Below are positions 3,501 to 6,658 of a stretch of 27,469 nt of DNA, in pieces. Source of the stretch: a virus. Location: positions 1 to 27,469 of IMG/VR virus record IMGVR_UViG_3300023174_000545, one strand, 5' to 3'. Each line of letters opens with the position of its first letter. Position 1 is the stretch's first letter. Both the position numbers and the translations under genes were made by a program. Under the pieces are notes generated by a model. That model made no database searches. It saw only the letters and a list, made by a program, of their open reading frames with translations, and was not told where the DNA came from.

Positions 3501-4586
3501 TCAACAGAATAGCTTTGATTGGGTGTTGCTGATTCTTGTTTTTGCCAATTCGATATATTCTGGATTAAGCTCTATAATCAAAGCGTTTCTTCCGTTCTCG
3601 ATTGCCACTTCTGCTGTTGTCCCGCTACCTCCAAATGGGTCTAGGATTGTTCCGTCTTTAGGGCATCCAGCCAACACGCAAGGCTCTATAAGTTCCTTTG
3701 GGAATGTTGCGAAGTGAGCTTCTTTATAGGGCTTTACATTTACCGACCAAACACTCCTCTTGTTTCTTGTATTACCATCCCCACCCATCCATCCACTGTG
3801 GTCTTGTTGTGGAGACATTCCTTTCCCAGATGCAACGGCATAACTCTGTTGTCCTCTTCCGATTGCTCCTTTTCCTTGTTTTGATATTGCATTTTCGGAA
3901 ATAACCTTATTATCAAAATAATAATTTGAGTTTTTAGTCATAAGAAAAATGTATTCGTGAGCCTTGGTGCATCTATCAGTAACGCTCTCTGGCATCGGGT
4001 TCGGCTTGTGCCATATAATGTCTTGGCGTAAATACCATCCGTCTGCTTGTAGCGCAAAGGCAACACGCCAAGGGATTCCCACCAAATCCTTCGACTTTAA
4101 TCCATATATCTTATTGTTTATAGCTGTCGATTGCCCATTTCTCCCATTTGAATATTTTGGGTCTTTCCACTCACCCTTGCTTCCAGTCCCGCAATAACTG
4201 TCACCCAAATTAAGCCATAGAGTCCCGTCATTTCTTAAAACCTTTCTCACCTCACGGAACACATCGACCATCTTTTGAACATAACTTTCTGGCGTAACTT
4301 CCAATCCTATCTGCCTATCCTTTCTTTCTGCTCCACACCTCTTGCACTTGTCTTTGTAGATTCCGTCACCAACCGCACCCTCAAGATTCCTATGTCCAGT
4401 TTGGGTTAGTTCACTTTGTTTTGAATCTCGTTTGTGAGAGCAGGCTGGGTCTCCACCAACCCACTCGCCAGTTCCGTAGTCTCTCAATCCCCAATATGGG
4501 GGCGATGTGATACAACAATTTACAGACTCGCTAGAAAGAGTTTTTAGAACTTCCAAGCAATCCCCTTGTTTTATTTCGTAGTTCAT
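3501..4586 (-). CDS. DNA methyltransferase, beta class (SPPY type)
   Basis: This is 361 residues from ATG 4586, coupled to the upstream HTH gene by ATGA. Motif IV is TSPPYWG at 28-34 and motif I is DPFGGSGTT at 316-324. The order IV then I, with the target-recognition region between, defines the beta class of N4-cytosine or N6-adenine DNA methyltransferases. It acts in the cytoplasm, moving a methyl group from S-adenosylmethionine to DNA. Cysteine pairs at about residues 50-90 (ACSHK and CKRCG) may hold a zinc ion. No restriction endonuclease gene is adjacent, so it is an orphan enzyme, probably for protecting phage DNA. Length is normal and the gene is intact. This is the second methyltransferase in the window. 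Confidence 0.93.
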   Translation of the reverse strand: MNYEIKQGDCLEVLKTLSSESVNCCITSPPYWGLRDYGTGEWVGGDPACSHKRDSKQSELTQTGHRNLEGAVGDGIYKDKCKRCGAERKDRQIGLEVTPESYVQKMVDVFREVRKVLRNDGTLWLNLGDSYCGTGSKGEWKDPKYSNGRNGQSTAINNKIYGLKSKDLVGIPWRVAFALQADGWYLRQDIIWHKPNPMPESVTDRCTKAHEYIFLMTKNSNYYFDNKVISENAISKQGKGAIGRGQQSYAVASGKGMSPQQDHSGWMGGDGNTRNKRSVWSVNVKPYKEAHFATFPKELIEPCVLAGCPKDGTILDPFGGSGTTAEVAIENGRNALIIELNPEYIELAKTRISNTQSKLFC

Positions 4587-4849: not shown

Positions 4850-5241
4850 TTGATTCCCCTTCCGCTTGACTTCCGAGCCGTGAAGTTTTTGCTTTTTGCG
4901 TTCACGATTGAGGAGTGATGGCATCCCCAAGCGTTCGCAATCTCCTTTACTGTTAGCCCAGACTCATATTGAGCTTTCCAAATCCCCCATCGCTTCTGAA
5001 CTGTATTGTGGGAGCGATTTCCCCTTGCCCTATACTTGCCGTAGGTAGGCACAAGCTCCTTTGGAATGTCGAGGGGGGTGGTTGTACCCATTACGAGCGT
5101 TGCAAGCCCTTTAGAGGCTAACTCCGTTCGATTTTGAGCCATCTGGGCGGTGAGTGTGGATACCATTTGCTCAAATTGGGCAATCCTATCCTCACAGAGC
5201 TTCACCCGATGGATTGTGGCCGCTAAAACAAGGTCGTTCAC
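4846..5241 (-). CDS. HTH DNA-binding protein with N-terminal coil
   Basis: This is 131 residues from GTG 5241, chosen because it forms a GTGA overlap with the stop of the initiator-like gene; an upstream GTG at 5262 is possible. Residues about 12-45 are a heptad-like helix (KLCEDRIAQFEQMVSTLTAQ). Near the C-terminus, GLTVKEIANAWGCHHSSIVNA is a clear helix-turn-helix similar to those in DnaA domain IV and sigma-like regulators, followed by a basic tail. It is co-translated with the initiator-like gene, so it may help at the origin or control the operon. No enzyme motif is visible. Confidence 0.75.
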   Translation of the reverse strand: MNDLVLAATIHRVKLCEDRIAQFEQMVSTLTAQMAQNRTELASKGLATLVMGTTTPLDIPKELVPTYGKYRARGNRSHNTVQKRWGIWKAQYESGLTVKEIANAWGCHHSSIVNAKSKNFTARKSSGRGIK

Positions 5242-6002
5242 GGACAACCCGCCTTTTCCCACGCCTCAAGCGTCTGAAATCCCATAATTTTGTAAGTTGG
5301 GGGGGATTCACACCCCGATTTAATTGGCTTCTTCATTGGTTGGTTTCCTTTGATTGGTTGTTGGTTGCTCCTGCGCTGACAATTTCTGGCACACGCTCGC
5401 CAATCCTTAACCGATGCCCTGCCCCCAACTTTCCATCCGTTCGATTGGTAGTAATCAAAAGCCGACTCTGCATCCGTAAGCCTCCATCCGATCTCATTTG
5501 CAAAGGCAATCCATTCAGCGTGCGTAGGTCGTAAGCCCTCTCTCTCTTTCTTGTTATCCTTATTACTATAACTCTTACTATTACTATTACTCTTATTATA
5601 TACGATAGATGGTTCATCTATGGACGATAGATGGTTCATAGATGGTGCATCTATGGCGCATCTATGGGTTATCCTTCGAGCATATCCAGCCGATCTTTCC
5701 TCCATCTTTGCCAGTGCGGAGGCCACTCCTCCGTGATAGATTGCCCCATCTTTAATTTCATAAACCCCTGCAACCTCAAGCTCTTGTAGTAGTGGTTTTG
5801 CATCTTGACCAACCATCCGACTGATCTGCTCTGGGCTTGGGGGGTTGCCGTTGATCGTTAGCTTGCCGCCGGCGTTGGCCTTATACATAAGGCACAATAG
5901 GTGAATCCATAGCCCCTTGGCCTCAAGGCTAACCAAGGCCAGCTTCTCATTCGCCAGCCAGCGGTTAGGCTCAAAGGGAAACCAGAAGCTATCCCGCCTC
6001 AT
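5238..6002 (-). CDS. Replication initiator/replisome organiser-like protein
   Basis: This is 254 residues from ATG 6002 (ATGA overlap with the upstream gene). The N-terminal 100 residues (SFWFPFEPNRW, then ISRMVGQDAKPLLQELEVAG) look like a winged-helix domain of phage replisome organisers. Residues about 112-134 are encoded by the six 11-bp repeats, and 135-152 are a low-complexity S/N/K linker encoded by the AT-rich stretch. The C-terminal part has SAFDYYQSNGWKVGG and VKDWRACARNCQRR, a DnaD-like tail often found in phage initiators that recruit a helicase. Its neighbours (HTH proteins, methyltransferase, SSB-like protein) fit replication. The exact family cannot be fixed by eye. Confidence 0.75.
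   Translation of the reverse strand: MRRDSFWFPFEPNRWLANEKLALVSLEAKGLWIHLLCLMYKANAGGKLTINGNPPSPEQISRMVGQDAKPLLQELEVAGVYEIKDGAIYHGGVASALAKMEERSAGYARRITHRCAIDAPSMNHLSSIDEPSIVYNKSNSNSKSYSNKDNKKEREGLRPTHAEWIAFANEIGWRLTDAESAFDYYQSNGWKVGGRASVKDWRACARNCQRRSNQQPIKGNQPMKKPIKSGCESPPTYKIMGFQTLEAWEKAGCP
5548..5601. other. AT-rich stretch beside iterons, candidate unwinding element
   Basis: About 54 bases are dominated by TTACTAT-type steps with very few G or C. They directly adjoin the six 11-bp repeats on their downstream side in gene direction. Within the initiator-like gene this encodes a serine/asparagine/lysine linker. The layout iterons plus AT-rich block inside the initiator gene is that of the lambda origin. 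Unwinding function is inference. Confidence 0.55.
5602..5667. repeat. Six contiguous 11-bp iterons, candidate replication origin
   Basis: The plus-strand units begin at 5602, 5613, 5624, 5635, 5646 and 5657, each 11 bases with no gap and each ending ATGG. They read ACGATAGATGG, TTCATCTATGG, ACGATAGATGG, TTCATAGATGG, TGCATCTATGG and CGCATCTATGG. The core octamers CATAGATG and CATCTATG are reverse complements, so the site flips strand while staying on one face of the helix. The period of 11 does not fit codons, so the repeats cannot be explained by protein repetition. Their place inside an initiator-like gene suggests binding sites for that protein. Confidence 0.8.
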
Positions 6003-6286
6003 ACTGGCAGGTTAGCGAGAGCTTCGCTAAACTTTTCTGGGTCATCTATTGGTTTGCATACTAAATTTCCGTTCTCTGATATATGCAAAGAAACACAACC
6101 CAATGTTGCAAGCAGAAGAAAGTTATAGTCCTTCATTACATTTGTTGCCCAGCCTACAACTTTAATAATATCCTCTTCTGTTTGCTCCCTTCCAGCCACC
6201 GCAGAACATATTAGCCTTTGTCTTTGTTTCTCGGACAAAAGTTCTTTCATAATATCATCAGGCAATTCCATTTTTGTATCTTTCAT
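5999..6286 (-). CDS. Small protein of unknown function
   Basis: This is 95 residues from ATG 6286 with a strong AAGGAGA about 9 bases upstream. It is largely helical and acidic, with one hydrophobic stretch (YNFLLLATLGCVSLHI, about 54-69) that could be a buried core or a weak membrane segment, followed by a short hairpin (ENGNLVCKPIDD). It overlaps the initiator-like gene by 4 bases, so the two are probably co-translated and may work together. No family is recognised. Confidence 0.7.
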   Translation of the reverse strand: MKDTKMELPDDIMKELLSEKQRQRLICSAVAGREQTEEDIIKVVGWATNVMKDYNFLLLATLGCVSLHISENGNLVCKPIDDPEKFSEALANLPV

Positions 6287-6287
6287 T

Positions 6288-6512
6288 TTATTGTATCTCC
6301 TTTTTTTTATTTGTTTTTTCCATATCGATCTTCTGATACTTCTTGGCTCGTTCTAATAGCTCTTTAGTGATACGATGCGAGTAGTCGAGGTGACTAATGA
6401 TGTCCTTAAAGTTTTCCACTTCTGCGTGATTCAATCGCTTAAACAAGTCTTTTAATCTTCTACTGACCAGTCCGTGAAACTCATCGACAAGGCTCAATCT
6501 TTTGACGCTCAT
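6288..6512 (-). CDS. Small helical protein of unknown function
   Basis: This is 74 residues from ATG 6512, preceded by GGAGGAG about 9 bases away and by an ATGA overlap with the 49-residue membrane protein. It is rich in K, R, L and H, predicted all helical, with a lysine-rich end (KYQKIDMEKTNKKKEIQ). It may be an accessory or nucleic-acid-binding protein. No motif supports a function. Confidence 0.65.
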   Translation of the reverse strand: MSVKRLSLVDEFHGLVSRRLKDLFKRLNHAEVENFKDIISHLDYSHRITKELLERAKKYQKIDMEKTNKKKEIQ

Positions 6513-6658
6513 TTTTTAATTCTCCTCCATATATCTCTTACTAAATCCCAGAATAGGTCGGCCAGAAATAGAATGGTGAGAAAAATACTCAAGCATCCTA
6601 TACCTACCACGAACAATTCCCACAAAACTTTCCCGATGGATGAAAGGAAAGTTACCAT
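6509..6658 (-). CDS. Small membrane protein, 49 residues
   Basis: This frame runs from ATG 6658, overlapping the end of the preceding gene by 7 bases and the next start by ATGA. Residues about 15-38 are a strongly hydrophobic helix (VVGIGCLSIFLTILFLADLF), followed by the basic C-terminus RDIWRRIKK that would stay in the cytoplasm. The tight joins on both sides favour it over a longer frame in another register (6516-6791), which has no such coupling. Function is unknown; small membrane proteins in early phage regions often act on host functions or exclusion. Confidence 0.65.
   Translation of the reverse strand: MVTFLSSIGKVLWELFVVGIGCLSIFLTILFLADLFWDLVRDIWRRIKK

Follow-up and report, generated by a model that had tools for sequence, protein, structure and literature searches.

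The window analyzed in this work comprises the 27,469 bases of an IMG/VR virus record, from a phage described as freshwater, and its minus strand carries an initiator-like gene (5238..6002), delimited by open reading frame and translation. The AlphaFold2 model of the encoded protein of 254 aa, made from a 46-member alignment, comprises an N-terminal winged helix, a disordered linker and a C-terminal helical domain. The winged-helix domain (residues 1-100; 5703..6002, minus strand) is modelled confidently over residues ~11-100, with pLDDT ~90 across residues 21-90, and is presumed to bind the iterons described below on the basis of this model, of VIA-align structure comparison and of its exchange together with the array. 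The C-terminal helical domain (residues 158-213; 5364..5531, minus strand), which has a pLDDT of 92 when modelled alone and is, according to the swap analysis, common to relatives with other N-domains, is presumed to recruit the replisome. Linker residues 118-155 are predicted to be disordered (pLDDT below 50), and it is the linker, where protein constraint is low, that is encoded by two DNA features on the same minus strand: an array of six contiguous 11-bp iterons (5602..5667), coding for disordered residues ~112-134, and, directly 3' of it in the gene, a 54-base AT-rich block (5548..5601), a presumed unwinding element with AGTAAT-like hexamer repeats coding for KSNSNSKSYSNKDNKK.

In gene-strand order the units of the array are CCATAGATGCG (iteron 1, 5657..5667, minus strand), CCATAGATGCA (iteron 2, 5646..5656, minus), CCATCTATGAA (iteron 3, inverted, 5635..5645, plus, where it reads CATAGATG), CCATCTATCGT (iteron 4, inverted, 5624..5634, plus), CCATAGATGAA (iteron 5, 5613..5623, minus) and again CCATCTATCGT (iteron 6, inverted, 5602..5612, plus), the last of which abuts the AT-rich block; orientations on the gene strand are thus ++--+-. 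Read on the plus strand, the array is ACGATAGATGG TTCATCTATGG ACGATAGATGG TTCATAGATGG TGCATCTATGG CGCATCTATGG. The core is exact CATAGATG/CATCTATG in four units and GATAGATG (equal to CATCTATC) in the other two; the exact cores occur nowhere else in the window. Within the array, identity reaches 0.69 at lag 11 and ranges over 0.05-0.4 at neighboring lags. Re-reading of 5602-5667 therefore directly confirms the six contiguous units, all ending in ATGG on the plus strand and with an octamer core present in both directions, that were reported in the initial annotation. Its further proposal, that the units stay in helical phase while a half-site changes strand, holds in part. The phase is approximate only, as 11 bp against ~10.5 bp amounts to a drift of roughly 85 degrees across six units, and the orientations do differ, but the unit turns round in place, without moving: in the flip the two central bases, framed by palindromic arms CAT..ATG, go from AG to CT. 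Another unit, degenerate but in register (GGAAAGATCGG), is located 33 bp upstream of iteron 1 (5690-5700), and in-register remnants of a similar kind (GGAAAGATCGG, CGAAGGATGAC) are found in relatives, hinting that the array may formerly have been longer. Elsewhere in the window, at 1137-1276, there are T-rich 11-bp tandem repeats (CAATTTTTTTCC, CTTTTTTTTGTG), the second stretch with ~5-6 copies.

Repetition at the protein level, which had already been argued to be incapable of producing such an array, was ruled out as its cause, since 11 is not a multiple of the codon and since the array is rarely matched under a null in which the protein is fixed and synonymous codons are drawn at the phage's own usage. 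Of 20,000 such trials, four produced six sites chained at intervals of 11 bp, and one reached the observed lag-11 match count. Across 23 linkers of initiators in the window and in relatives, lag-11 matches exceed this synonymous null by a mean z of 2.93, with no excess at lags 10, 13 and 17; the mean lag-11 z of 196 other gene segments is -0.06.

A first search for relatives yielded 79 loci, the contigs being at most ~39 kb long, and alignment-based searches extended these to more than 300 loci, many of which are overlapping fetches of the same contigs, several contigs being fragments. Among relatives that share the N-domain of the window (type A), the check for loss of the array in phages that keep the gene turned out in its favor, as the array is kept in register in all 18 distinct type A arrays. 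In these 18 non-redundant arrays 92 of 93 AGAT/ATCT cores lie in one 11-bp register, a count that does not represent 93 independent events because the arrays share descent. Unit number ranges from three (L037, L045) to eight (L032, L034), encoded residues drift, and register and core persist across lineages whose proteins are ~60% identical. Taken as 11-mers, with minus units reverse-complemented, 61 forward and 31 reverse units yield one core, [AT]AGATG. Compared with L023-type arrays, those of the L032 type have 22 bp (two units) more in the array and 1 bp less elsewhere, which means that the frame was repaired outside the array. In L145 the forward cores have changed to CAAGATG and the reverse core to CATCTTG, from which it follows that one constraint acts on units of both orientations. 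The exact two-iteron pattern has 28 matches in 2.9 million viral contigs, 27 of which fall within type A initiator genes and the remaining one at the end of a contig. Conservation and concerted change are thus directly visible at the DNA level, and the relatives argue strongly for selection on the DNA of the array. In four larger phages of up to ~65 kb (L154, L156, L203, L228) both the N- and C-domains are kept and the linker has no array.

Another group of relatives (type B) has a different N-terminus (KLPWIKFYP...WLSDEALRSC), nearly the same C-terminal domain and 11-bp iterons of another sequence, with 82 of 90 motif matches in 11-bp register. Within an array these iterons share a single orientation, and their sequences drift together (AATGTCCAGCA, AATGTCACGCT, AATGTAACGCA, CATGTAACCAA, AATGTAATGCA). 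This bears on the possibility that the alternating orientation in the window was selected for hairpins in single-stranded DNA or mRNA, either as a primer or primosome assembly signal or as mRNA structure, with protein binding being secondary. The gene strand does fold into a nested structure in which units 1-4, 2-3 and 5-6 pair (z of -3.6 as RNA and -3.7 as DNA). However, type B arrays keep the 11-bp period without any flips, hairpins alone need no exact 11-bp register, and orientation strings differ among relatives (++--+-, ++--++, ++-, +++-, +-+-+), so that no fixed pairing scheme is kept. A fixed hairpin scheme as the reason for the flips was ruled out on these grounds, and we consider selection for hairpins in general to be improbable. 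The repeats could also be a mutational by-product of tandem duplication and template switching in the unconstrained coding sequence of a disordered linker. Low-complexity linkers tolerate repeats, unit number varies among arrays and an in-place flip of the center of a quasi-palindrome is what template switching produces; nevertheless, register and core are kept across the diverged type A proteins, cores change in concert, a separate N-terminal type maintains an independent 11-bp array, and background gene segments are devoid of the lag-11 excess. An origin by mutation alone is therefore very improbable.

The two types are connected by exchanges of domains. In six type B relatives with 11-bp ATGTCC-type iterons (L055, L073, L057, L059, L068, L069), DNA identity to the window is 83-94% in the first half of the C-domain and about 90% immediately upstream, but only ~44-56% in the N-domain, array and block, with the crossover in AGAAAGAGAGAGAGGGCTT, just past the block. 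L035 and L049 are the converse, with the N-domain and array of the window and a different C-domain. The cassette that moves thus consists of N-domain, array and block, a co-transfer which is directly observed, and the joint transfer of N-domain and array is the strongest evidence that the N-domain probably targets the array. A link between the type B iteron subtype and single residues that follow the winged helix was also considered; this was dropped because the codons concerned overlap the degenerate first iteron. In L033, L036, L046 and L049 the C-terminal tail of the initiator is exchanged for an unrelated one (KKGGDLMSISSLEFDGM...), and these replaced tails suggest a further exchange point after the C-domain.

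As had been noticed at first, an AT-rich block adjoins the array; it is 80% A+T, and by nearest-neighbor energy the 50-mer at 5553-5602 is directly found to be the least stable of the whole window. The block is likewise the least stable 50-mer in five near-complete relatives with an SNSN-type block (G001, G002, G003, G005, G008) and ranks first for low stability in 34 of 43 type A loci, these loci being ~5 kb long. It is not the least stable 50-mer in G009, G012 and type B; in type B relatives the iterons are present, the AT-rich minimum is absent and 7-bp repeats occupy its place. The cumulative GC skew, for which an inflection at the array had been suggested as a check, is monotonic with gene direction and has no inflection in the window or in nine relatives, complete-sized ones included. 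The skew is uninformative here because nearly all genes point one way. No Rfam RNA family and no tRNA were found in the window. The homologous gene of isolate phages has a replicative helicase gene as its neighbor in Pam1 and Pkon1 and a DnaC-like loader in Versailles. In the record of the window and 12 relatives no genes of the Pfam families DnaB_C and PolA were found, and an initiator that recruits host machinery would accordingly be needed. Downstream of the initiator, beyond two small ORFs, lies an N6/N4 DNA methyltransferase gene (3501-4586; PF01555, E 2e-48).

The four best VIA-align chains for the N-domain are plasmid Rep initiators (4pql, 5kbj, 4pt7, 4pta; Z 6.9-7.3), aligned over 84-86 residues with rmsd of ~4 A, and the best-aligned entries are titled 'Structure of Rep-DNA complex' and 'Structure of MDR initiator'. 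Since these Z values are moderate, the likeness to Rep initiators is to be taken as a lead, one which agrees with the earlier description of the N-terminal domain as initiator-like and with its predicted winged helix. Foldseek in BFVD returned DUF1376, Lin1244/Lin1753-like and replication-initiator-named phage proteins, and members of the family match PHROGs named 'replisome organizer', 'primosomal protein' and 'replication initiation'. The Pfam family Phage_rep_org_N (PF09681) matches 15 of 46 members weakly (best E 1.5e-4) and does not match the window protein, which matches only two PHROGs, both unnamed, via linker and C-terminus. The DnaD-like C-terminal signals mentioned in the initial annotation received no support for this protein from Pfam or solved structures: neither it nor any of the 46 members matches a DnaD-type Pfam family, the C-domain model has no relative among solved structures, and the DnaD-like phrog_186 is matched by four of the 46 members, the window protein not among them.

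Winged-helix regulators also bind repeats of this kind and initiators commonly regulate themselves, so the array could be an operator through which the protein represses or times transcription of its own operon and does not start replication. In the structure ranking, winged helix-turn-helix chains of CRP, NtcA and LexA follow the Rep initiators, those of CRP/LexA close behind at Z 6-6.7. Against this, the array lies ~330 bp inside the gene, a promoter scan of 5000-6600 detected no promoter-like site, in SNSN-type relatives the DNA next to the array is the least stable, a further domain of the protein is of a replication type and has exchanges of its own, and the PHROG labels of relatives are replication labels. 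We regard a purely regulatory role as a slight possibility.

From all these results, the 120-base stretch of array and block is very probably a phage replication origin that lies inside the linker-coding part of the initiator gene and is bound by the gene's own product. The original suggestion of a candidate origin inside an initiator-like gene is thus supported by conservation of the array, by its concerted change and by its replacement together with the N-domain. Weighing against such an origin are the array-free linkers of L154, L156, L203 and L228, the missing AT-rich minimum of type B, the lack of a solved-structure relative for the C-domain and a GC skew devoid of an origin signal. Binding, unwinding, replisome recruitment and origin activity are the steps that we infer for the array and block. 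The winged-helix N-domain would bind the six 11-bp iterons, each on either strand, and contiguous spacing of one turn would place neighboring copies next to each other along roughly the same DNA face. The resulting nucleoprotein complex would strain and open the adjoining AT-rich block, and the C-terminal domain would then bring in host helicase or primase machinery.

Similar combinations of iterons and a second repeat were observed outside the type A family. A tandem 7-bp repeat, YAGAAGC, in at least three copies, follows immediately 3' of the iterons in numerous initiator-like phage genes that are otherwise unrelated, namely in type B (e.g. L073, L128, L142), in Pam1 (L316) and Pkon1 (L318) and in L347-L426; by eye it is present in ~65 of 80 fetched IMG/VR loci. 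Its period of 7 is not a codon multiple either, and all three frames are used (44/26/8). N-domains at these loci match PHROGs named 'primosomal protein' (23/51) and 'replisome organizer' (19/51). Iteron sequences differ and the heptamer stays, which suggests a shared, perhaps host, factor or a role in strand opening. In seven further loci (L229, L233, L237, L239, L243, L244, L249) initiators of the KRPAFQFYPADWRKD type contain GGTTAACC/GGATAACC units ~12 bp apart, followed by TTCATC repeats (a poly-Ser linker), and these are possibly another version of iterons plus a simple repeat in the linker. The linker of a winged helix-turn-helix gene in a distant relative from a Planctomycetota MAG (L251) contains 11-bp repeats, TTCTGTGCAGG and GTTTGTGCAGC, with a lag-11 z of 5.7. 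It is possible, although we put it forward only tentatively, that the array of the window is one example of a widespread type of phage origin, in which abutting iterons of one helical turn (11 bp) would be read either way by a winged-helix initiator in a continuous filament, and in which an adjoining, separately evolving repeat (AGTAAT hexamers in the window, YAGAAGC heptamers in numerous unrelated initiators) would be recognized as a single strand by a conserved host factor, with N-domain, iterons and second element travelling between phages as a cassette.

Most environmental phages have no mapped origin, and the array offers a direct, testable origin candidate for a group of freshwater phages for which neither a DnaB-type helicase gene nor a PolA gene was detected. 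As a sequence rule, a non-codon period of ~11 bp in an initiator linker beside low-stability or repeat DNA could serve to find origins in many phage families. Each DNA-binding domain is paired with its own iteron in the natural swaps, which may be useful for understanding winged-helix recognition, and the mixed orientations raise the question whether initiator assembly needs direction at all.

An origin inside an initiator gene is a kind of arrangement that is already known. In lambda O and in the Stx phages P27 and 933W, iterons and an AT-rich tract are situated mid initiator gene, and iteron number is 4 in lambda and 6 in Stx phages, matching extra amino acids (PMC7466680). The window resembles lambda ori in having both elements in the middle of the gene and an iteron number that varies among relatives, and differs in that its iterons are 11 bp long, gapless and of mixed orientation. 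No lambda O profile matched the window protein, which has no match to an O-like PHROG; the O-like phrog_678 is matched by only two of 46 members. The Rep boxes of the staphylococcal RepA_N protein pSK41 Rep are located in the stretch of rep that encodes the linker and are bound by the winged helix at the N-terminus of the protein, which can do without its linker and interacts through its C-terminal domain with the DnaG primase of the host, and in the hybrid pPR9 N-domain and origin were swapped with >97% of the C-domain kept (PMC5703833). The likeness to the window, where binding is inferred, lies in the sites being in the linker-coding part of the gene and in the swapping of N-domain and sites over a C-domain; the difference is that six contiguous 11-mers in a phage gene take the place of four Rep boxes in a plasmid gene. 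The structural Z is only ~7, and the window protein has no match to RepA_N (PF06970; hmmscan at E<=1 gives only FAM195 at 0.018), which is matched by 0/46 members. Phage replisome organizers and DUF1376-type primosomal proteins are a further point of comparison, several family members matching phrog_13246 (replisome organizer) and phrog_9327 (primosomal protein) and members also matching PF09681 or PF07120 weakly, with no match above threshold for the window protein. In the Vibrio cholerae PLE, the N-terminal DNA-binding domain of RepA covaries with the origin iterons, the C-domain stays and replicon modules are swapped (PMC8263062). The same covariation over a constant C-domain is found here, but PLE iterons are three semi-palindromes of ~30 bp which are intergenic, outside repA. 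In the part of the literature that was searched there was no description of gapless one-turn iterons of mixed orientation with a cassette swap, nor of 11-bp phage iterons in this initiator family or of the CAGAAGC heptamer. Judging from the sequences compared, the origin proposed here would therefore be a new variant of this known kind, one with gapless, one-turn iterons of mixed orientation and with a cassette swap to a different one-turn iteron.
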